Assembly: GCA_030524635.1 (NCBI GenBank)
Contig: JAUNGG010000013.1
Coordinates: forward strand, 1 to 64,000
Origin: Lachnospiraceae bacterium
GTDB lineage: Bacteria; Bacillota; Clostridia; Lachnospirales; Lachnospiraceae
Length of the DNA: 64,000 nt
Reading direction: 5' to 3'
Below, in pieces: positions 31,012-40,433 of the stretch (positions are counted from its first letter, which is position 1; each line of letters starts with the position of its first letter). The notes below the pieces were generated by a model. The model saw only the letters and a list, made by a program, of their open reading frames with translations. It searched no databases and had not been told where the DNA came from. The translations under genes were made by a program, and so were the position numbers.

Positions 31012-31235
31012 TTGATGAAGACAAGGGGGAAGGAAAAATAAGGTAAAAATAATAAGAACCAGTTGCGTTTTTCACAGATTTTGCTATAATGGAAATATCT
31101 GGATGATTCGCATTCCGCATAGAAAACTTAAGGTCCTGTACGGGAAGATATAAGGCAGAAGGCCGAGCAGTTGCTGATTTCTGTGATCAGTTATAAGGCG
31201 GCAAATACAAGGTGGATGCTGCCCCTGTTTTGAAT
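31012..31235 (+). repeat. Rpn-element leader, copy A (promoter plus structured RNA)
   Basis: This stretch is shared with 37836-38028 and 39166-39395. It begins with AAGATTTTGATGAAG, which resembles the last codons of the nucleotidyltransferase gene at 36596. It then has a promoter, TTGCGT (31063-31068), 16 bases, TATAAT (31085-31090, extended -10 TGC), and a conserved stretch with several hairpins. In this copy the first hairpin is damaged. It runs directly into the Rpn C-terminal remnant at about 31235. Confidence 0.7.
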
Positions 31236-31489
31236 TCTTAACGGAATTTTTGACCAAGCACAAGGCGGAGGTGAGAAAGATGATTTTAAGCGAATACGAT
31301 GAAGAACTGCATTTGAAGGATACGTATCATTGTGGGTATGAGGATGGGAGATCGGAAGGAGAAAGCCTATTTGCATCGCTGACAGCGAAGCTGATCGGAG
31401 ACTCCCGGCTGGATGATCTGACAAACGCATTAAAGGATGAGGAATTCCGCCGTTGCTTATATCGCGAATATGGAATTAAGAAGGAATAA
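31236..31489 (+). pseudogene. Truncated Rpn-family gene, C-terminal part only; possible solo RpnS-like antitoxin
   Basis: The sequence from TTAACGGAATTTTTGACC onward matches the last 85 residues of the two full copies at 38159 and 39500; the first 220 or so residues are deleted, with a junction about 31235. The intragenic ribosome site GGAGGTGA (31267-31274) and ATG 31280 are intact, so a 69-residue protein beginning MILSEYDEELHLKDTYHCGY could be made from the leader promoter. Its EG linker is the shortest of the three copies. It is either a dead remnant or a free-standing small C-terminal protein. Confidence 0.7.
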
Positions 31490-31514
31490 ACAGCAGATGA
31501 TTTGTTAGATTTAT

Positions 31515-31638: not shown

Positions 31639-31821
31639 TCACTCATTTTCTGATAACGTATTCTTACCCTGCTCTTTTTTCAGCGATTCCAGGCCTAAGC
31701 GTATCAGCTCTACTGTTGCCTCGGAGCGGGTCTGAAAACGGTTTTCAAAACGGAAATCTTCAATCCGTTTAAACAACTCATTGTCTACAGAAACCGTATA
31801 TCTTGGCTTATCCGTTGCCAT
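31639..31821 (-). CDS. Ribbon-helix-helix DNA-binding protein
   Basis: A 60-residue protein of the ribbon-helix-helix (CopG/Arc-like) type. Residues 6-13 (PRYTVSVD) form the DNA-reading strand, followed by helix A (NELFKRIEDFRFENRF) and helix B (TRSEATVELIRLGLESL). The start at 31821 is set by GAGGTG seven bases upstream; the frame is open to 31830. It is transcribed away from a second RHH gene. No toxin partner lies next to it, so a plain regulator is more likely than a type II antitoxin, though the latter is not excluded. Confidence 0.75.
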   Translation of the reverse strand: MATDKPRYTVSVDNELFKRIEDFRFENRFQTRSEATVELIRLGLESLKKEQGKNTLSENE

Positions 31822-31889
31822 ATTCATCACCTCACTTACTATTATGCACCAGTGATGCAGAGATGTAAAGATGTAATTTTAATTTTTTC

Positions 31890-31918
31890 TTGACAGTGAA
31901 TCACTGAACCATTACAAT
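31890..31918 (+). promoter_or_regulatory. Promoter of the RHH/peptide operon
   Basis: TTGACA (31890-31895), exactly 17 bases, then TACAAT (31913-31918). It is the strongest promoter in this accessory region. The spacer contains TGAATCACTGAA, part of a repeated operator-like word. Confidence 0.8.
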
Positions 31919-31946
31919 AAAAGAGTAAAAGATTCACTGAATCACC
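31896..31946. promoter_or_regulatory. Palindromic operator-like repeats between the divergent RHH genes
   Basis: GATTCACTGAATC (31931-31943) is a perfect palindrome around one central base. TGAATCACTGAAC (31897-31909), inside the promoter spacer, repeats the same half-sites. RHH dimers bind such short repeats in tandem, so autoregulation by one or both RHH proteins is inferred. Confidence 0.55.
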
Positions 31947-31986: not shown

Positions 31987-32178
31987 ATGGCTACGAACCT
32001 GAAACGATTTACAATATCGGTAACCCCCAAAATGGAGGAAGCTTTGGATGCGGTAAAGAAGGAACGTTACTATAACACCTCACATAATGAGATGATCCGG
32101 GATCTGATTCGGATGGGACTGAATGTTCTTAAGACAGAACACGGGGAAGACCGGTATAAGCAGGAGAGAACTGCGTAA
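31987..32178 (+). CDS. Ribbon-helix-helix DNA-binding protein, first gene of the peptide operon
   Basis: A 63-residue RHH protein. LKRFTISVTPKMEEALDAVKK gives the beta strand and first helix, and SHNEMIRDLIRMGLNVLK the second. AAAAGGAGG lies ten bases before the ATG. A consensus promoter and palindromic repeats lie directly upstream, which fits self-repression. The peptide gene starts 92 bases downstream on the same strand without an intervening terminator, so this protein may control the whole operon. That link is inferred. Confidence 0.75.
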   Translation: MATNLKRFTISVTPKMEEALDAVKKERYYNTSHNEMIRDLIRMGLNVLKTEHGEDRYKQERTA

Positions 32179-32270
32179 GGATGTAGAGCGGTGCGGACTG
32201 CAACATCTGTAATCAGGAGAATCGGGATGGTTTCCTGGGTGATTCATGACAGTTAGAGGAGGAGAAAGCA

Positions 32271-32393
32271 ATGGAGAAGAAAAATTATGAAAGACCTGTG
32301 ATGGAAGTAATCCGGATGGAGCAGGAGGATGTGATTCGGACGAGTGATCCCAATGGAAACAGTATAAGCAGTACTAGTCTCGATGCATTTTAA
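32271..32393 (+). CDS. Putative RiPP precursor peptide (40 residues, YxxP leader motif)
   Basis: A 40-residue ORF behind a very strong ribosome site (AGAGGAGGAGAAAGCA before ATG). It begins MEKKNYERPVMEVIRMEQED and ends in a Ser/Thr-rich tail, DPNGNSISSTSLDAF. Y6-x-x-P9 followed by hydrophobic and acidic residues resembles the leader motif bound by PqqD-like recognition elements in lasso-type systems. The tail has five Ser/Thr after residue 30 and no Cys, so thioether or Cys-derived azole rings are not possible. Its stop lies inside the start region of the kinase gene (11-base overlap), giving translational coupling. Assignment as a modified-peptide precursor is inferred from context. Confidence 0.7.
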   Translation: MEKKNYERPVMEVIRMEQEDVIRTSDPNGNSISSTSLDAF

Positions 32394-33132
32394 ACCAATG
32401 AAGTTTAACATAAGATTAGCCGGTTTAACAATCGGGCTGAACAGTGAATACCCGGCGCTTAAGGACTTCTGTCAGGATTATCTGGCAGAGGAAAAGGCGC
32501 CGGATTTTTCTGTTTCCATTACCCGAAAAGAATGTATGGAGGAGCAAAAGCACTCTTTTGAAGCAGGTCAGGAGTATTCCTTTGATTACCTGGCGCAGCT
32601 GGCGCTTCTCCGCCGGATTGGGAATATCCTTCCGGCTTATGGGCGTTGTCTGCTTCACGGGGCGTCCATCACCTATCAGAGCTCGGCATACCTATTTACC
32701 GCACCTAGCGGAACCGGGAAATCCACTCACATCCGATTGTGGAAGGAGTATCTGGGAAGTGGAGTGGAGATTGTCAATGGCGATAAGCCGATCCTGTCCT
32801 TAGAGGATTCACAGATTTGGATTCACGGAACTCCCTGGGCGGGAAAGGAAGGCTGGCAGCGGAACCGAAGCGCAGTTTTAAGGGGCATATGCCTGTTAAA
32901 GCAGGGAAAGGAGAACCGGATTGAGAGACAGCAGCCATGGAGTTGCCTGCCCCGTCTGTTAAAGCAGATTTATCTGCCCCAGGAGGAAGGGATGGCCGGT
33001 GAAACCCTCAGGCTTTTAGACCGGCTGCTGGATATTGTTCCGGTGTACCAGTTGGAATGTGACCGAGCAGAGGAGGCGGTTCGCTGCAGCTTTGAGGCGA
33101 TGACAGGGCTGCCTTATAAGGAAGGGAGATAG
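32383..33132 (+). CDS. HPr-kinase-like P-loop kinase of the peptide locus
   Basis: A 249-residue protein of the HprK-related kinase group (PEPCK-like P-loop fold). It carries LLHGASITYQSSAYLFTAPS, then GTGKSTH as the P-loop near residues 110-116, and EIVNGDKPILSL, the position of the HprK acidic metal site, at about 128-140. Such kinases in lasso-type clusters phosphorylate a serine of the peptide. The Ser/Thr-rich peptide upstream is the obvious candidate substrate. The start is ATG 32383 or 32398; neither has a clear ribosome site because of coupling to the peptide gene. Confidence 0.75.
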   Translation: MHFKPMKFNIRLAGLTIGLNSEYPALKDFCQDYLAEEKAPDFSVSITRKECMEEQKHSFEAGQEYSFDYLAQLALLRRIGNILPAYGRCLLHGASITYQSSAYLFTAPSGTGKSTHIRLWKEYLGSGVEIVNGDKPILSLEDSQIWIHGTPWAGKEGWQRNRSAVLRGICLLKQGKENRIERQQPWSCLPRLLKQIYLPQEEGMAGETLRLLDRLLDIVPVYQLECDRAEEAVRCSFEAMTGLPYKEGR

Positions 33133-33136
33133 GAGC

Positions 33137-33412
33137 ATGAGAATGAAAAAAGGATTTGTCCTGCGGGAGGTGGCCGGACAGTTTATGGTGATCGCCACCG
33201 GGGAGGCCAGCAGGCAGTTTCACGGTATGATTCGTCTGAACCAGACCGGTAAAGAGATCTGGCAGGGACTTTCTGATGGGTTGACAGAGGAAGAGATTGC
33301 GGGGAAGCTTGTCCAATCCTATGGGATTGAGAAGAGTCAGGCAGCAGAGGATGTAAGGAACATGATTCGGCAAATGACAGAGGAAGGATTTTTGCAGAAT
33401 GAAGAGCCATGA
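33137..33412 (+). CDS. PqqD-family peptide-recognition protein (RRE)
   Basis: A 91-residue stand-alone PqqD-fold protein. It shows the winged-helix pattern of RiPP recognition elements: a strand region to VIATGEASRQFHGMIRLNQTG, then KEIWQGLSDGLTEEEIAGKL and a final helix ending MIRQMTEEGFL. Such proteins bind the leader peptide through a beta strand and deliver it to the modifying enzymes. TAGGAG precedes the start. It lies 4 bases after the kinase and overlaps the peptidase gene by 14 bases. Confidence 0.82.
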   Translation: MRMKKGFVLREVAGQFMVIATGEASRQFHGMIRLNQTGKEIWQGLSDGLTEEEIAGKLVQSYGIEKSQAAEDVRNMIRQMTEEGFLQNEEP

Positions 33413-33887
33413 ACATGAAATGGAGCCGGCGGTTAAGGCAGAAGAAGGCAGCAGAACCATAGAGGATATTCTGCAGAAGGAAGGGATATATGTAGGAACC
33501 ACAGCCGGTGTCAGCATGTACCCCATGCTGAGAGACCGGCGGGATACCATCGTGATAAGGCCCTGCCGGGGGCGGCTTAAGAAGTATGATGTGCCGCTGT
33601 ACCGTCGGGGAGATGCCTATATTCTGCACCGGATCGTCCGGGTGCTGCCGGATTCTTATGTGATCTGCGGCGATAACTGCCTGAGGCGGGAGTATGGAGT
33701 GACAGACCAGCAGATTTTTGGAGTTTTGACTGAGTTTTACCGGGGAGATACCTGGATCAACATGAACGGCCTGGCATACAAGGGGTATGTCAGGTTTTGG
33801 TGTTTTATATACCCGGCGCGCTTCTGCTGTAAAGTGCTTTTGGGCAGGGTAAAATGCTTGTTGAAGGGAGAAAGGATAGGATGCTGA
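33399..33887 (+). CDS. S24/S26-type peptidase, signal-peptidase-like (ER-type His variant)
   Basis: A 162-residue protein. The catalytic serine is S39 in AGVSMYPMLRDRRDT. The general base position reads YILHRIVRV with H77, as in the SipW/ER-type signal peptidases that use His instead of Lys, and VICGDNCLRREYG is the conserved GDN box. Residues 128-148 are hydrophobic and may form a membrane anchor. In this operon it is the best candidate for leader removal from the 40-residue peptide. A cryptic regulatory role is less likely. Confidence 0.75.
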   Translation: MKSHEHEMEPAVKAEEGSRTIEDILQKEGIYVGTTAGVSMYPMLRDRRDTIVIRPCRGRLKKYDVPLYRRGDAYILHRIVRVLPDSYVICGDNCLRREYGVTDQQIFGVLTEFYRGDTWINMNGLAYKGYVRFWCFIYPARFCCKVLLGRVKCLLKGERIGC

Positions 33888-34822
33888 AGCGAGTGATCAT
33901 AATACTGACGATTCTGCTTGCGGCAGTTATGACCGTTTTTTTCTGGCAGGGAAGACGGGAGGAACAAAATAAGCAGGCTCAGTACCGGCAGATGGAATTG
34001 GAGGCACAGCCTCTGAATGTAAAAAAACAGGGAATTCAGCAGGAGATATGGCGGCTGGAGGCAGATTATTCGAAACAGCTGTCGCCCATGGGAACGGCTG
34101 TGATTTTATTTACCTCACCGGATGCGGAAGTGTATACGAAGTGTTATCCGGTGATGCGGGAGCACGGCTATCTGGGCGTAGTGGCATTGTCTGCGTCCAA
34201 GTTTCCTGGAGAGGAGGGCTGTATGACCCAGGAGCAGTTTGCAGAGCTGCTGCGGATGGGATGGCGCTTCTGTGTGATCTGGGAGCCGCCTGTGGAGCGG
34301 ACAGCAGAGCGTCTGCAGTCTGCCGGAATGAGTTTGAGTGAGGTTGTTTATTTCCCGGAGGGGACTTATGCTTCTCAGTATGACAAGGAACTGAAGGAGA
34401 TGGGATTTTCCGTGGCGGTTCATCATGGAGAGGAGAGCGGCAACATTCTCACGCTGGAGGACGAGGAGGAGATCTGGCACCCCGGAGCGGTAGGATTACG
34501 GGGAAGTCAGGCAAAATATTGGCTGAGAGAGGCAGTATCCCAGAAGGGAAATATGGTGTTTGCAGTAGGCTTTGAGCAGCAGGAGGAGCTGTACGATGAG
34601 CGGAAGTTTCAGAATATGATCGACAGCCTGGACAGTTATCGAACCGAGGGCAGCATTATGGTAACTGATTTTGCCGGGGCCAGGTCATTAAGCGGGGAAG
34701 CGGCCTTGAAAAAAATTACGTTGGAGCCGGAATATAACAAAAATCGAGAGGAGCTGGAGGAGGAGCTTCGCCAGGTCAATGAGGAGCTTGACGCTGTTTA
34801 CAAAAAATATCTGGAAAATTAG
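33881..34822 (+). CDS. Membrane-anchored NodB-fold (polysaccharide deacetylase-like) protein, degenerate
   Basis: A 313-residue protein with an N-terminal membrane helix (residues 4-22, RVIIILTILLAAVMTVFFW), a short coiled coil, and a domain with NodB-like layout: AVILFTSPDAEVYTKCYPVM, HGYLGVVALSA, TQEQFAELLRMGWRFCVIWE. The Asp/His/His metal site of polysaccharide deacetylases is not present. A second coiled coil closes the protein (EELEEELRQVNEELDAVYKK). AAAGGATAGG supports the start at 33881. Its role in a peptide locus is unknown; it may be a carrier or scaffold outside the membrane. Confidence 0.6.
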   Translation: MLKRVIIILTILLAAVMTVFFWQGRREEQNKQAQYRQMELEAQPLNVKKQGIQQEIWRLEADYSKQLSPMGTAVILFTSPDAEVYTKCYPVMREHGYLGVVALSASKFPGEEGCMTQEQFAELLRMGWRFCVIWEPPVERTAERLQSAGMSLSEVVYFPEGTYASQYDKELKEMGFSVAVHHGEESGNILTLEDEEEIWHPGAVGLRGSQAKYWLREAVSQKGNMVFAVGFEQQEELYDERKFQNMIDSLDSYRTEGSIMVTDFAGARSLSGEAALKKITLEPEYNKNREELEEELRQVNEELDAVYKKYLEN

Positions 34823-34830
34823 AGAAATTG

Positions 34831-36522
34831 ATGAAGACAATCAAATGGATAAACAATACAGTTGGGACAGCCAGGTGGCTGGTAGTGCTTTTAAGCCTGC
34901 AGAAAAGCCTGCTGGCATTATGCGGCATCGGATATGCTCTTTTTATGCGCCGGATCATAGATGACGCTGTTGCTGGAAATCAAGCCGGGTTTGTCAGATG
35001 GGCAGCAGCGCTGGGCGGGGTGATATTGCTTCAGCTTCTGATACAGGCAGCAGCACGTTTCTGCCTGGAAGAGAGCACATCGGCTGTGACAAATAAGCTC
35101 CGTCAGGCAGTATTTCATGGAATTATGACACAGGATTACCGGACTGTTGCATCATGTCATACAGGAGAGCTGATGAACCGGATCACCTCAGACGTTACGG
35201 CGGTGTCTGATGGAGTGACAGCGCTGATTCCCGATGTGATCTCCATGGTACTGCGGGTCATTGGAATATTGGCAGTACTGTATCAGGTAGAGAAGAGGCT
35301 GGCTGTTCTGCTGGTAATCGGAGGAGGAATTCTGACAGCGCTGTCATTTTTTCCAAGAAAACTGATGAAGAAACTATATCATTGGGTGCAGGAGCAGGAA
35401 GGAAAGGTGCGGTGCCTGATACAGGAATGCTTAGAAAGCCTGCTGATCATACATTGCTTTCAGTGTGAAGAGAAGATGGAAAAGGAAGCTGGAAAACAGA
35501 TGAGAATCCAGCGGATGGTGAGAAGGCGGAGAGGAGCATTTGCCAACTTATTTAATATCGGGCTGAACGCAGCAATGCAGTGGGGATACCTGCTGGGTGC
35601 AGTCTGGTGCGGATGGGGAATCCTGCAGGGGTGGCTGAGCTATGGAACCATGATGGCTGTTCTTCAGCTGATTGGTCAGATTCAGGCGCCCTTTGTCAAT
35701 CTAGGAAATGCATTTCCAAAGTGGACGGCGATGACAGCCAGCGGGGAACGCCTGATGGAGCTGACACTCCATTTACAGCAGTCAGAACAACCATCTGTAA
35801 GGCTGTCAGAGAAGCAGAGAGAGTTATATTCGGCACTTACAAGGGAAGAAATTTACCAGCAGATGGAATCAATCTCGTTCGAACAGGTATCCTTCCAATA
35901 TAAAAGTGGAAGACAAGTGCTGGAGCAGGAATCTTTTCAGATTCGAAAGGGAGAGGTGGTGGCAATGACGGGTTCCAGCGGCATTGGAAAAAGCACGATC
36001 ATGAAGCTTTTGCTGTCAGTTTATGAGCCGGACAGCGGCAGGATCGTACTCCGTTTCAACCATGCGGATGAATCCGGACAGATACCATCTATCCCGGTAT
36101 CTCAGCTTCCACCAGGAATCTTTGCTTATGTGCCTCAGGGAAATTGTCTGATGAGCGGAACGATCCGGGAAGTGGTAGGCTTTTCCCAGCAGGCAGGAGC
36201 AATCGATCAAAGGGATGTGGAGGAAGCCTGCGGCATTGCATGTGCCCATGAATTTATTCAGCTTCTCCCGGATGGATATGATACGGTGCTTGGAGAACGA
36301 GGAGCCGGTCTGTCAGAAGGGCAGATGCAGCGGCTGGCTGTAGCAAGGGCGATCTACAGCCGCTGTCCCATTTTGCTTTTGGATGAAGCTACATCGGCAT
36401 TAGATGGAGAAACAGAGGGAAGGCTGATGAATGCTTTGAGAGCATTGCCGGACAGAACGATACTGATTGTAACCCACCGTGCAGATACGTGGAAACGATG
36501 CGACAGAGTTTTAACTCAATAA
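34831..36522 (+). CDS. ABC transporter, fused permease and ATPase, of the peptide locus
   Basis: A 563-residue half-transporter with about six membrane helices in residues 15-300 and an ATPase domain in 345-563. Walker A is MTGSSGIGKST near 380, the signature is LSEGQMQRLAVARA with LSEGQ in place of LSGGQ, Walker B is ILLLDEATSALD and the H-loop IVTHR. There is no N-terminal C39 peptidase domain, consistent with a separate S26-like peptidase in the operon. It would export the processed peptide as a homodimer. It begins eight bases after the previous gene. Confidence 0.86.
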   Translation: MKTIKWINNTVGTARWLVVLLSLQKSLLALCGIGYALFMRRIIDDAVAGNQAGFVRWAAALGGVILLQLLIQAAARFCLEESTSAVTNKLRQAVFHGIMTQDYRTVASCHTGELMNRITSDVTAVSDGVTALIPDVISMVLRVIGILAVLYQVEKRLAVLLVIGGGILTALSFFPRKLMKKLYHWVQEQEGKVRCLIQECLESLLIIHCFQCEEKMEKEAGKQMRIQRMVRRRRGAFANLFNIGLNAAMQWGYLLGAVWCGWGILQGWLSYGTMMAVLQLIGQIQAPFVNLGNAFPKWTAMTASGERLMELTLHLQQSEQPSVRLSEKQRELYSALTREEIYQQMESISFEQVSFQYKSGRQVLEQESFQIRKGEVVAMTGSSGIGKSTIMKLLLSVYEPDSGRIVLRFNHADESGQIPSIPVSQLPPGIFAYVPQGNCLMSGTIREVVGFSQQAGAIDQRDVEEACGIACAHEFIQLLPDGYDTVLGERGAGLSEGQMQRLAVARAIYSRCPILLLDEATSALDGETEGRLMNALRALPDRTILIVTHRADTWKRCDRVLTQ

Positions 36523-36595
36523 GAAGGTTACTATAAAAGTCTGCTGTCGAATAGGCGGCTTACGTTCATTCGGGAAGAAGGGAATTGTAAAAAGG

Positions 36596-37861
36596 ATGAT
36601 AAGGGAGAAGAAAACAGAATTTAATTGGCCAGCGGGCCACTATCTGGTTTTTTTGATGGGGTGTGCTCTGCAGGATACATTAGGGAAAGAAAAGTGGAAG
36701 AGGAAACCGGAAGCAGTCACCTGGGAGCAGGTGTATGCATTGTCTAAGCATTGCGGAGTAGAAGGTATCAGTTACTTTGGCGTGAAAAAATTGGAAGAAC
36801 AGGAGGGGAAGAAAGCAGATTTGCCTGCAGACCCGCTTATGAAGGCATGGAAGCAGGAGGCTGACCAGATCTGTTATCGAACCCTTTGCTTTGATGAAGA
36901 GCGCAATGCAATCTTAAAGGAAATGGAAGCCCAAGGACTTTCTTATTTGCCATTGAAGGGAATCCGTCTGGCGGAACATTATCCTCATCCGGGAATGCGG
37001 CTGATGGCAGATAATGATATTTTATATGGATTTATAGAACCGGGGCTGGATGGAGGATATCAAATAGCCGGAGCGGATGAGAGCAGCCGGGACAGATCGG
37101 TGCTGAGCGCTCAGAAGGTAATGCGGGAAATTATGAATCAAAAGGGATACAAAACGGAGAACCTGAAAGGAAACCATGATGTATATTTAAAAAAGCCCTT
37201 CTATAATTTTGAGATGCATCGTATGCTGATGGGAGAAGGGCAGCCGAATTATGAATATTATAAGAATCCATGGAAGCGGGCGATCCAGGATACTGCGAAC
37301 CCATATGCCTATTTTTTCTCTGATGAGGATGAGTACTTGTATCTGCTGGCACATGCTTTTAAGCATTTTTATCATGGAGGCTGCGGAATCCGTTTTCTGG
37401 CGGATCTATATGTATTTCAAAAGAGTAAGGGAGATAGCCTGGACCGCAGATACCTGACGCAGGAACTGCGGAAGATGGGAATGGAGGATTTTGAGGCAAA
37501 GATGAGCCAGCTTTCTATTGCCGCGCTGGAAGGAAAACTGCTGAATCGAAAAGAAGCCGAACTGCTCCGGGAGCTTCTTGGATGCGGAACCTATGGAACC
37601 ATCCGTACTCATGTAGAAAAGAAACTGGAGCGGCTGTCTGATTCTGACAACAGTTTCAAACATGCAAAATGGCGCTATATTTGGAAACGAATTGTGCCGG
37701 AGAAGGAGTTTTGTAAAAACTATTTTCCATTTTTTTATCGCCATCGGTATTTGATGCCGGTTCTTTTCCTTTATCGAGTAGGAAAGGGTGTGATTCAGCA
37801 TCCAAAAAAGCTGTGGGCAGAGTGTAAGATTTTAATGGAGACCGGGAGGAAGGAAAAATAA
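36596..37861 (+). CDS. Nucleotidyltransferase family protein (NTP_transf_5 type)
   Basis: A 421-residue protein of the uncharacterised NTP_transf_5 group, often found in lasso-peptide and PqqD-containing loci. The core motif YLPLKGIRLAEHYPHPGMRL is followed by MADNDILY (about residues 136-143), where the acidic pair matches the DxD of the nucleotidyltransferase fold. DVYLKKPFYNFEMHR follows. The rest is helical with LYLLAHAFKHFYHGG. It could nucleotidylate or otherwise modify the peptide, or work with the kinase. Its last codons and stop lie in a repeat shared with the Rpn leaders. Confidence 0.75.
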   Translation: MIREKKTEFNWPAGHYLVFLMGCALQDTLGKEKWKRKPEAVTWEQVYALSKHCGVEGISYFGVKKLEEQEGKKADLPADPLMKAWKQEADQICYRTLCFDEERNAILKEMEAQGLSYLPLKGIRLAEHYPHPGMRLMADNDILYGFIEPGLDGGYQIAGADESSRDRSVLSAQKVMREIMNQKGYKTENLKGNHDVYLKKPFYNFEMHRMLMGEGQPNYEYYKNPWKRAIQDTANPYAYFFSDEDEYLYLLAHAFKHFYHGGCGIRFLADLYVFQKSKGDSLDRRYLTQELRKMGMEDFEAKMSQLSIAALEGKLLNRKEAELLRELLGCGTYGTIRTHVEKKLERLSDSDNSFKHAKWRYIWKRIVPEKEFCKNYFPFFYRHRYLMPVLFLYRVGKGVIQHPKKLWAECKILMETGRKEK

Positions 37862-38028
37862 GGTAAAAATACGAGAAGTTGTTGCATTTTCTGCAAATTT
37901 TGCTATAATGGAAATATCTGGATACTATGCATTCCGCATAGAAAACTTAAGGCCCTGCACGAGAAGATATGAGGCAGAGGGCCGAGCAGTTGCTGATTTC
38001 TGTGATCAGTTATAAGGCGGCAAACATA
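37836..38028 (+). repeat. Rpn-element leader, copy B (promoter plus structured RNA)
   Basis: This is homologous to copies A and C. The promoter is TTGCAT (37882-37887), 16 bases, TATAAT (37904-37909). After it, CTATGC/GCATAG, GGCCCT/AGGGCC and CTGAT/ATCAG stems can form. The next 75 bases diverge from copy C, then similarity resumes at CTTTGCAAAACAGACAG before the Rpn start. This fills the 37862-38158 gap. Confidence 0.7.
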
Positions 38029-38158
38029 AGATTGCTTTGCCCTGATGGGAATTGGTTATAGATTCCTGAGTGATCGTCTTCGAAAAAATGATAATTCCAA
38101 TTATTTCCACTCTTTGCAAAACAGACAGATTATAGTAAAATAAAAGGAGAACGTGCAT

Positions 38159-39076
38159 ATGACAGTTACAAAAGAGGCGGCAGGAAACCGTCAGCATAAG
38201 GATCGGCTGTTCCGCAGGATCTTTCAGGAGAAGGAAGATCTGTTAAGCTTGTATAATGCGGTGAATGGTTCTCATTATACCGACCCGGAGGAACTTGAGA
38301 TCACAACCATTGAGGATGTCCTTTACATGGGAATTAAGAATGATATCTCGTTTCTGATCGATGATTATCTGAATTTATATGAGGCCCAGTCCAGCTGGAA
38401 TCCCAACATGCCGCTGAGAGGAATCTTTTATTTTTCCAGCCTGTATTCCGGGTATGTGAAGGTGCGGAAGCTGGATCTTTATTCACGGAGCCGGATTATG
38501 ATTCCTACTCCAAGGTTTGTAGTGTTTTATAACGGAACCCGGAGGGAACCGGAGAGAAGGGAACTTCGTCTGTCCGATTCCTTTATCAAATCCGACAACC
38601 AGCCGCCCAGCCTGGAGTGTGTGGCAGTGGTGCTGAACATTAATTACGGACAGAATAAGGAATTAATGAAAAACTGCCGGAAGCTGTACGAATACGCGTT
38701 TCTAGTCAATCAGATCCGGATTCATATTGGGAAGGGACTGACGCTGGAGGCAGCGATTGATGAAGGGATTGCAGTTTGTGTGGAGCAGGATATCTTAACG
38801 GAATTTTTGACCAAGCATAAAGCGGAGGTGAGAGAGATGATCTTAAGCGAATACGATGAGGAACTGCATTTGAAGGATACGTATCATTGTGGATATGAGG
38901 ATGGGAGATCGGAAGGAAGAAAAGAAGGAAGGATAGAGGGAGAAATGAAGGGCGAAAGCTTATTTGCATCCCTGGCGGCGAAGCTTATAAAGGATTCACG
39001 GATGGATGATTTGACAAATGCATTAAAGGATGAGGAATTCCGCCGTCGCTTATATCGCGAATATGGCATTAAATAA
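38159..39076 (+). CDS. Rpn-family PD-(D/E)XK nuclease, copy B
   Basis: A 305-residue protein of the Rpn/PD-(D/E)XK transposase-like family. The N-terminal half holds HKDRLFRRIFQEKEDLLSLY and the nuclease core DISFLIDDYLNLYEAQSSW with NMPLR (about residues 62-85; E-x-Q variant of the catalytic motif). The C-terminal part is helical with an EG-rich linker of four repeats (EGRKEGRIEGEMKGE). E. coli Rpn proteins are DNA nucleases with antiphage and recombination-promoting activity. ATG 38159 has AAGGAG ten bases upstream; GTG 38153 is less likely. It is almost identical to copy C. Confidence 0.85.
   Translation: MTVTKEAAGNRQHKDRLFRRIFQEKEDLLSLYNAVNGSHYTDPEELEITTIEDVLYMGIKNDISFLIDDYLNLYEAQSSWNPNMPLRGIFYFSSLYSGYVKVRKLDLYSRSRIMIPTPRFVVFYNGTRREPERRELRLSDSFIKSDNQPPSLECVAVVLNINYGQNKELMKNCRKLYEYAFLVNQIRIHIGKGLTLEAAIDEGIAVCVEQDILTEFLTKHKAEVREMILSEYDEELHLKDTYHCGYEDGRSEGRKEGRIEGEMKGESLFASLAAKLIKDSRMDDLTNALKDEEFRRRLYREYGIK
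38837..39076 (+). CDS. Possible intragenic RpnS-like small protein, copy B
   Basis: Inside the Rpn gene, GGAGGTGA (38824-38831) lies eight bases before an in-frame ATG at 38837. This is a near-perfect Shine-Dalgarno in a coding region. The product would be the last 79 residues, MILSEYDEEL onward, with the EG linker. In E. coli, shorter RpnS proteins made from within rpn genes block the full-length nuclease. Translation here is inferred from the site and its conservation in all three copies. Confidence 0.5.
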   Translation: MILSEYDEELHLKDTYHCGYEDGRSEGRKEGRIEGEMKGESLFASLAAKLIKDSRMDDLTNALKDEEFRRRLYREYGIK

Positions 39077-39165: not shown

Positions 39166-39395
39166 AAATTTTGATGAAGACAGGGGGAAGGAAAAATAAG
39201 GTAAAAATAATAAGAACCAGTTGCGTTTTCTGTATATTCTGCTATAATGGAAATATCTGGATGCTATGCATTCCGCATAGAAAACTTAAGGCCTTGCACA
39301 GGAAGATATAAGGCGGAGGGCCGAGCAGTTGCTGATTTCTGTGATCAGTTATAAGGCGGCAAATACAAGGTGGATGCTGCCCCTGTTTTGAATTT
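39166..39395 (+). repeat. Rpn-element leader, copy C (promoter plus structured RNA)
   Basis: It begins with AAAATTTTGATGAAGACAGG, which again resembles the 3' end of the nucleotidyltransferase gene. The promoter is TTGCGT (39221-39226), 16 bases, TATAAT (39243-39248). It closely resembles copy A up to TTTTGAATT, where copy A is deleted. The 39077-39499 gap holds this leader, the copy B stem-loop and a variable spacer. Confidence 0.7.
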
Positions 39396-39499
39396 TCTCA
39401 TTGATTCAGGATTAATGATTCCTGAAATATAATCATTTCATTCATCCCCAGTCTTTGCAAAACAGACAGATTATAGTAAAATAAAAGGAGAACGTGCAT

Positions 39500-40399
39500 A
39501 TGACAAATACAAAAGAAGCGGCAGGAAACCGTCAGCATAAGGATCGGCTGTTCCGCAGGATCTTTCAGGAGAAGGAAGATCTGTTAAGCTTGTATAATGC
39601 GGTGAATGGTTCTCATTATACCGACCCGGAGGAACTTGAGATCACAACCATTGAGGATGTCCTTTACATGGGAATTAAGAATGATATCTCGTTTCTGATC
39701 GATGATTATCTGAATTTATATGAGGCCCAGTCCAGCTGGAATCCCAACATGCCGCTGAGAGGAATCTTTTATTTTTCCAGCCTGTATTCCGGGTATGTGA
39801 AGGTGCGGAAGCTGGATCTTTATTCACGGAGCCGGATTATGATTCCTACTCCAAGGTTTGTAGTGTTTTATAACGGAACCCGGAGGGAACCGGAGAGAAG
39901 GGAACTTCGTCTGTCCGATTCCTTTATCAAATCCGACAACCAGCCGCCCAGCCTGGAGTGTGTGGCAGTGGTGCTGAACATTAATTACGGACAGAATAAG
40001 GAATTAATGAAAAACTGCCGGAAGCTGTACGAATACGCGTTTCTAGTCAATCAGATCCGGATTCATATTGGGAAGGGACTGACGCTGGAGGCAGCGATTG
40101 ATGAAGGGATTGCAGTTTGTGTGGAGCAGGATATCTTAACGGAATTTTTGACCAAGCACAAAGCGGAGGTGAGAGAGATGATCTTAAGCGAATACGATGA
40201 GGAACTGCACTTGAAGGATACGTATCATTGTGGGTATGAGGATGGGAGATCGGAAGGAAAAGCAGAGGGCGAAAGCTTATTTGCATCCCTGACGACGAAA
40301 CTTATAAAGGATTCACGGATGGATGATTTGACAAATGCATTGAAGGATAAGGAGCTTCGCCAGCGCTTATATCGCGAATATGGCATTAAGAATGAATAA
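39500..40399 (+). CDS. Rpn-family PD-(D/E)XK nuclease, copy C
   Basis: A 299-residue protein, nearly identical to copy B over residues 8-235, including the core DISFLIDDYLNLYEAQSSW. The EG linker is shorter (EGKAEGE) and the last 40 residues carry several substitutions (for example TTKLIKDSR, DKELRQRLYREYGIKNE). AAGGAGAACGTGCAT precedes the ATG. The near identity over about 700 bases and change in the C-terminal tail suggest recent duplication or gene conversion, with the C-terminal region evolving faster. Confidence 0.85.
   Translation: MTNTKEAAGNRQHKDRLFRRIFQEKEDLLSLYNAVNGSHYTDPEELEITTIEDVLYMGIKNDISFLIDDYLNLYEAQSSWNPNMPLRGIFYFSSLYSGYVKVRKLDLYSRSRIMIPTPRFVVFYNGTRREPERRELRLSDSFIKSDNQPPSLECVAVVLNINYGQNKELMKNCRKLYEYAFLVNQIRIHIGKGLTLEAAIDEGIAVCVEQDILTEFLTKHKAEVREMILSEYDEELHLKDTYHCGYEDGRSEGKAEGESLFASLTTKLIKDSRMDDLTNALKDKELRQRLYREYGIKNE
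40178..40399 (+). CDS. Possible intragenic RpnS-like small protein, copy C
   Basis: GGAGGTGA (40165-40172) precedes an in-frame ATG at 40178, as in copies A and B. The product would be a 73-residue C-terminal protein with the copy C linker. Translation is inferred. Confidence 0.5.
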   Translation: MILSEYDEELHLKDTYHCGYEDGRSEGKAEGESLFASLTTKLIKDSRMDDLTNALKDKELRQRLYREYGIKNE

Positions 40400-40433
40400 A
40401 CAGCGGATAATCTAAATTCATGAATACAATAAA

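Follow-up and report, generated by a model that had tools for sequence, protein, structure and literature searches.

What kind of peptide is made by a small gene cluster in which a 40-residue precursor stands next to a recognition protein, a kinase, and a signal-peptidase-like protease? The cluster lies at positions 31987–37861 of a 64,000-nucleotide stretch of DNA from a Lachnospiraceae bacterium (GenBank assembly GCA_030524635.1, contig JAUNGG010000013.1, positions 1 to 64,000), hereafter the window. A first-pass annotation had called it a candidate new type of ribosomally synthesized and post-translationally modified peptide (RiPP) locus. The novelty did not hold: six core genes matching those of the window in kind and order were published in May 2026 as the linear polyphosphorylated peptide (LPP) cluster lppA-K-B-S-D-N of Paenibacillus alginolyticus (Popov et al., Nat Commun, 20 May 2026; PMC13381572), in the only paper we found that describes the class. 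We consider it very likely that the window cluster is a Lachnospiraceae LPP-family RiPP pathway from a divergent sub-branch, a judgment that covers the pathway and not a role at the cell surface. Within this published class, the window cluster is a variant with an inserted NodB gene and a divergent leader; we call it a variant because the leader logo differs (FETxxS in LPP, D[VI]I.[TA]S here).

Gene content and class assignment

All eight co-directional, tightly packed open reading frames (ORFs) described in the first-pass annotation were found on the plus strand at 31987–37861. Seven of them (32271–37861) form one tightly packed unit, preceded by a ribbon-helix-helix gene (31987–32178). The PqqD, HprK-like kinase, S26-like peptidase, and nucleotidyltransferase genes named in that annotation's title are present, but its order is not that of the DNA, which runs peptide, HprK-like kinase, PqqD, S26, NodB-like, ABC, and NTP_transf_5, or A-K-B-S-(NodB)-D-N. 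Neighboring genes overlap by 11 bp (peptide/kinase), 14 bp (PqqD/S26), and 7 bp (S26/NodB).

The likeness to LPP extends beyond gene order, apart from the NodB gene that sits between S and D. Both systems have a discrete RiPP recognition element (RRE), a S26/SipW-like leader peptidase, a MsbA-like exporter, a NTP_transf protein, no cyclase, and variable cores, and both precursors have a Y-type leader with a conserved Ser 18–19 residues past the Tyr (19 in the window). The window precursor is shorter (40 aa), and its host belongs to the Clostridia whereas the published hosts are Bacilli. The relatives of this branch also differ in having scattered precursors paired with secreted surface proteins and members in the Actinomycetota; together with the aromatic tag described below, these features are new with respect to published LPPs. 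In the published system, LppK phosphorylates core Ser3 several times, and leader removal by the SipW-like LppS requires the RRE protein LppB, whose binding of the LppA leader was shown experimentally; the kinase and leader peptidase were tested by deletion. LppN was inactive in a heterologous host, and the biological role of LPPs was stated as unknown (PMC13381572).

The HprK-like peptide kinase (lppK-like, 32383–33132, plus strand) has a Walker A motif (GTGKSTH), an upstream invariant His (H92), and a NGDKP motif, all seen in an alignment of relatives. Its AlphaFold model has a predicted local distance difference test score (pLDDT) of 95.6 and matches PEPCK/HprK in Foldseek, and its relatives match HprK_rel_A/B, ScmC, and hpr-ser. 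The S26/SipW-like leader peptidase (lppS-like, 33399–33887, plus strand) carries Ser39, His77, and Asp92, which are invariant across 27 aligned sequences; a search with its profile retrieves SEC11 and signal peptidase I (SPase I). It has the Ser-His-Asp residues and fold family in common with SipW and archaeal-type signal peptidases; it differs from them in that no membrane segment was detected in the window protein and in being encoded in a RiPP operon. The stand-alone PqqD/RRE (lppB-like, 33137–33412, plus strand) matches PF05402 (E=4.7e-15), and its profile matches TbiB1, TfuB1, LppB (9x8z), and PbaB1 (9x90). It carries residues equivalent to LppB N33 and D70, the Asn and Asp that hold the Tyr-type leader (PMC13381572); such residues occur in Y-type lasso RREs too. 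The kinase, the signal-peptidase-like protease, and the PqqD-like protein with its YxxP leader were each recognized correctly at first pass.

The exporter (lppD-like, 34831–36522, plus strand; most likely start ATG 34831) has ABC_membrane and ABC_tran domains with MsbA-type NCBIfam matches, and it is without a C39 peptidase domain. The lppN-like protein (36596–37861, plus strand) is a NTP_transf_5 member (PF14907, E=2e-38). Pfam supports the PqqD, ABC, and NTP_transf_5 assignments. As single sequences, the window kinase and peptidase fall under the Pfam/NCBIfam thresholds, and their identities are supported by profile, fold, or invariant catalytic residues. Single-sequence PDB searches with the kinase, NodB-like protein, and RRE gave weak matches, so profiles and fold comparison were needed. 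The window genome (3.8 Mb, 100 contigs, 94% complete) contains one PqqD, one kinase relative, and one family peptide in total; given this single copy of each, the three serve each other.

The additional gene (33881–34822, plus strand; best start 33881, with a good Shine-Dalgarno sequence) encodes a protein with one N-terminal membrane segment and a fold region flanked by long helices. Its model (pLDDT 84.9) matches PdaC (E about 2e-5) and other CE4 deacetylases in Foldseek, so it has a NodB-like fold in common with these enzymes. It differs from them in being membrane-anchored, in its flanking helices, and in its motifs: the catalytic Asp, His-metal, and other CE4 motifs were not recognizable in an alignment of nine family members. 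The first-pass description as a degenerate NodB-fold membrane protein was confirmed; it is probably an accessory on the envelope side that has no catalytic activity.

Three observations weigh against placing the cluster with LPP. First, the published leader logo (YxxPxVLxHQxIxFETxxS), a Bacilli-centered consensus that is not presented as a strict requirement (PMC13381572), does not fit the window leader, in which only the Y, the P, and the Ser (one position later) agree. Second, the residues at the predicted cleavage site fit two registers. Third, the RRE profile matches LppB (5e-7) but ranks TbiB1, a lasso B1, better (2e-10), which makes the window protein no more than a candidate member of the LPP RRE clade.

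The precursor family

The precursor (lppA-like, 40 aa, MEKKNYERPVMEVIRMEQEDVIRTSDPNGNSISSTSLDAF) is encoded at 32271–32393 on the plus strand behind a strong Shine-Dalgarno sequence (aggaggag). It has a Y6xxP9 leader motif, conserved D20 and S25, and a variable core; the residues following S25 are DPNGNSISSTSLDAF. This pattern holds across the family: leaders are conserved, with a Tyr and usually a Pro three residues on, and cores are hypervariable. Among 53 aligned peptides, the Asp is present in 50, followed by [VI]I, then T or A in 47, and the Ser in 52. The spacing from Tyr to Ser is 18–21 residues (19 in 37 of the 53 peptides), giving the branch signature Y..P.(M/I)E(V/I).....(E)D(V/I)I.(T/A)S.

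A peptide profile seeded from kinase loci and then searched over whole genomes gave credible matches in 20 of the 299 Lachnospiraceae genomes. All 20 carry the kinase, compared with 73 of 299 overall (Fisher p=6e-14), so the association is not due to chance. A match in one further genome (G149, a 646-aa frame) was judged spurious, and the profile had no match in the PDB. Loss of the peptide ORF from homologous loci had been set beforehand as a refuting test; we found that the peptide is kept in them.

The kinase searches gave 64 stretches for study, the window included, of which 44 have a PqqD relative; genes in the fetched loci were called by a simple ORF method. Once the set was enlarged by two plasmid loci and a peptide locus and cleared of duplicates, kinase, PqqD, and S26 are found together in 32 loci. 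NTP_transf_5 is present in 18 of these, the ABC exporter in 24, a peptide in 17, and NodB in five.

Scattered precursors and secreted-protein partners

In several Lachnospiraceae genomes, the precursors are dispersed while machinery loci are few: about 16 precursor sites in G259, five in G266, and four in G282. Nearly all of the ~16 precursors of G259 (L128–L139, L168, L169) lie directly behind a secreted-protein gene. Overall, 28 of 63 distinct peptides are encoded <250 bp behind a same-strand gene whose secreted product has 300 aa or more; for other genes, the figure is 77 of 1196 (p=1e-15; signal peptides called by a simple custom rule). Because several partners are cut at the N-terminus, 28 is an undercount. 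In the Blautia locus L041, a NodB-containing relative, the peptide gene overlaps the start of a gene for a 2667-aa BspA-type secreted protein.

The partners vary at the N-terminus (GH53, subtilase, laminin-G, F5/8C, and BspA (LRR) repeats) and have a small number of C-terminal domains in common, in groups of 12, 9, 8, and 6. In G282, all four C-terminal-domain proteins are paired with the four peptides, and in G259, one C-terminal-domain family has 13 members, 12 of which are followed by a peptide gene. In a third group, the best hits are paired nine out of nine, while weaker ones are mostly unpaired. These counts were taken in peptide-bearing genomes; eight control genomes were included for just one domain group, and the groups are small. 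In addition, proteins encoded next to peptides served to build the domain profiles and can be expected among the strongest matches; what is informative in the pairing is how few strong extra domain copies lack a peptide. For the window peptide, four C-terminal-domain profiles identified no partner in its genome.

Many loci also have a gene just before the kinase that encodes a linker, a single-membrane-span protein or lipoprotein with a long disordered tail. Several linkers end in an aromatic tag (VWTGYY, RWTGYY, QWTGYY, GWTGYY, GFGRFF, or KWGRIF). Five of 15,153 ORFs end in W[TS]GYY (L034 9302–9952, L035 9258–9944, L044 9459–9977, and L068 3511–4248 and 6012–6158): four encode linkers, which come from two phyla, and the fifth encodes a precursor that ends in WSGYY and shares its locus with one of the linkers. 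In L142, the linker ends in DEDGWTTIIVKP and the neighboring peptide in DEDGWTVIIVKP. The window locus is without a tagged linker; the membrane protein found there is the NodB-like protein.

Proposed pathway and role

If the window proteins act like their LPP counterparts, the RRE (33137–33412) would bind the YERP segment of the 40-aa precursor, as LppB binds LppA. The HprK-like kinase would phosphorylate, perhaps repeatedly, the near-invariant Ser25, the candidate phosphosite because it lies 19 residues past the Tyr, compared with 18 for the phosphoserine of LppA (PMC13381572). The S26-like peptidase would cut the leader off beside Ser25, either at I/RTS, which would place Ser third in the core, its position in LppA, or at T/S, following the -1/-3 rule. 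The NTP_transf_5 protein may then attach a sugar or nucleotide to the phosphate, like PsmN, which adds a hexose to phosphoserine in pseudomycoidin (PMC9266682), and the ABC protein would export the linear product. The initial suggestion of a linear, phosphorylated RiPP thus stands as far as the linear, cyclase-less gene set is concerned, and phosphorylation stands as the modification expected from the match to LPP.

What would such a peptide do? Compatible with the LPP reading, though we favor it only tentatively, is a role as a surface tag: the modified N-terminal Ser would be joined through its phosphate to an envelope sugar or polymer, the core would bind the C-terminal domain of a partner, and the pathway would tether or assemble surface proteins. 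The placement of peptides behind large secreted-protein genes, the variety of partner N-termini over a few common C-terminal domains, the domain–peptide pairing, and the WTGYY-like tags on linkers of the same loci and on some cores all favor this role, as does the PsmN precedent. A peptide is often missing for the weaker members of the C-terminal-domain families, and the window has neither a recognized partner nor a tagged linker. The surface tag is the best reading for the relatives; for the window, it is carried by analogy. By this weaker argument, the window product probably stays at the cell surface and is not a diffusible antibiotic.

More speculatively, LPP-type peptides may be the mobile partner in a system that tethers surface proteins, in which one machinery would serve up to a dozen-plus scattered precursors, each made with a secreted protein that has a matching C-terminal domain. 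The modified Ser would join the envelope glycan, and a C-terminal tag, as on the linkers, would hold the protein. If true, this would make a RiPP a structural connector, not an antibiotic, within a protein-anchoring pathway of abundant gut bacteria. The partner pairing and WTGYY-like tag point to a surface role and provide a first testable idea of LPP function; with seven genes in a compact, self-contained form, the window cluster lends itself to heterologous expression.

A diffusible linear phosphopeptide, acting as a bacteriocin or signal, appears unlikely to us. It would account for the dedicated ABC exporter, the hypervariable cores, and the patchy distribution, and copies of a repeated element lie on both sides of the window cluster, an arrangement often seen in mobile clusters. 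However, no immunity gene is recognizable, and the precursors of the relatives are coupled to secreted surface proteins, not to immunity or sensor genes.

Comparison with lasso peptide clusters and other kinase cassettes

Could the cluster instead be a decayed or cyclase-less lasso cluster of the paeninodin type, its cyclase (C) and B2 protease lost or supplied in trans? Paeninodin and pseudomycoidin clusters also have an HprK-like kinase, NTP_transf_5, a discrete B1/RRE (PqqD), an ABC exporter, and a related, YxxP-type leader, and the T-S-G near the cleavage region of the window precursor resembles lasso leaders with Thr at -2. However, no AsnB-like cyclase (PF00733) was found in any of the 64 related loci, the window included; a cyclase always present nearby in relatives is what had been named at first pass as a sign of decay. 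The sole AsnB of the window genome is of the glutaminase type (MCGI...) and lies on another contig. The B2 protease (PF13471) had no match above the cut-off in 34 of the 35 genomes; the single match, in the Bifidobacterium L035 genome, is a 41-codon fragment, and the best score in the window genome is 22 bits against a cut-off of 26. The first-pass annotation had likewise listed the cyclase and B2 as missing; the S26 peptidase occupies the place of B2.

The peptides point the same way: the window core has no Asp or Glu at positions 7–9, where lasso precursors of this type have the ring acid, in any of the registers I/RTS, T/S, or S/D, and paeninodin leaders have W, not Y (PMC13381572). The joint occurrence of kinase, PqqD, and S26 in 32 loci is also unlike decay. 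With neither a cyclase nor an intact B2 in loci or genomes, we reject lasso decay as highly improbable. Kinship with the HprK-related-kinase-A/PqqD cassettes (TIGR04352/TIGR04353) is likewise highly improbable: relatives weakly match HprK_rel_A/B and ScmC, but the window protein scores 12 bits against a cut-off of 200, and the full LPP gene order, S26 peptidase included, is present.

Distribution of the LPP-type loci

LPPs were stated to be restricted to Bacillota (PMC13381572). In contrast, on gene content, the family extends to Actinomycetota. Bifidobacterium tissieri (L035) carries N, B, S, peptide, and K, and B. pullorum (L047) has N, B, D, S, K, and peptide. Peptide, K, B, S, and D are found in Gordonibacter pamelaeae (L044). 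K, B, and S are present in Olsenella (L054), with N and ABC-type labels nearby, and in an Eggerthellaceae member (L034), at a contig end.

Plasmid searches found only distant relatives. A plasmid record labeled Phocaeicola massiliensis (L095 354–8360; label unverified) has B-N-D-K-S and a YxxP peptide and, provided that the label holds, would add a third phylum. Butyrivibrio fibrisolvens plasmid pNP243 (L096 7370–9393) encodes a kinase, PqqD, S26, and a Cys/Pro-rich 57-aa YxxP peptide, MKKAYVKPELKASMNG...CYDPCWNPCYNPCQPSYGRIW, with a different core type. A second type of YxxP peptide (SIAHNCGE...TCGW / SSSISSSCEG), apparently a separate class, occurs near other HprK-like kinases (L087 9683–9979; L083 9007–9276; L181 from about 2396, G007 C85). 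Six Oscillospiraceae loci (L037–L040, L042, and L043) encode a kinase relative but no PqqD, and our inferences do not draw on them; there, a conserved HprK-like kinase of this family lies in what looks like a housekeeping region, near NrdR-, methionine-biosynthesis-, and ATP-synthase-like genes, and PqqD, S26, and peptide are absent.

Regulators and flanking repeats

The ribbon-helix-helix gene that precedes the cluster (31987–32178, plus strand; RHH_1 E=0.004, NikR N-terminus) is probably regulatory. A second such gene (31639–31830, minus strand), with weak RHH/NikR N-terminal matches, is divergent to the cluster, has the intergenic region in common with the first, and encodes a probable regulator. 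Between these two genes, which stand just before the precursor gene, lies a direct repeat (D2, 31898–31944, 86%) of the motif GAATCACTGAACCA / GATTCACTGAATCA; this GATTCACTGAATCA-like repeat is a possible operator.

The repeated element that flanks the cluster is ~1.2 kb long and is found at window positions 31040–31500, 37861–39070, and 39200–40400. It encodes a ~300-aa protein that has no Pfam match and is possibly Rpn/PD-(D/E)XK-like. The two downstream copies are 92% identical, and the upstream copy is internally deleted. These flanking repeats suggest that the cluster arrived via a mobile element or recombination between repeats.

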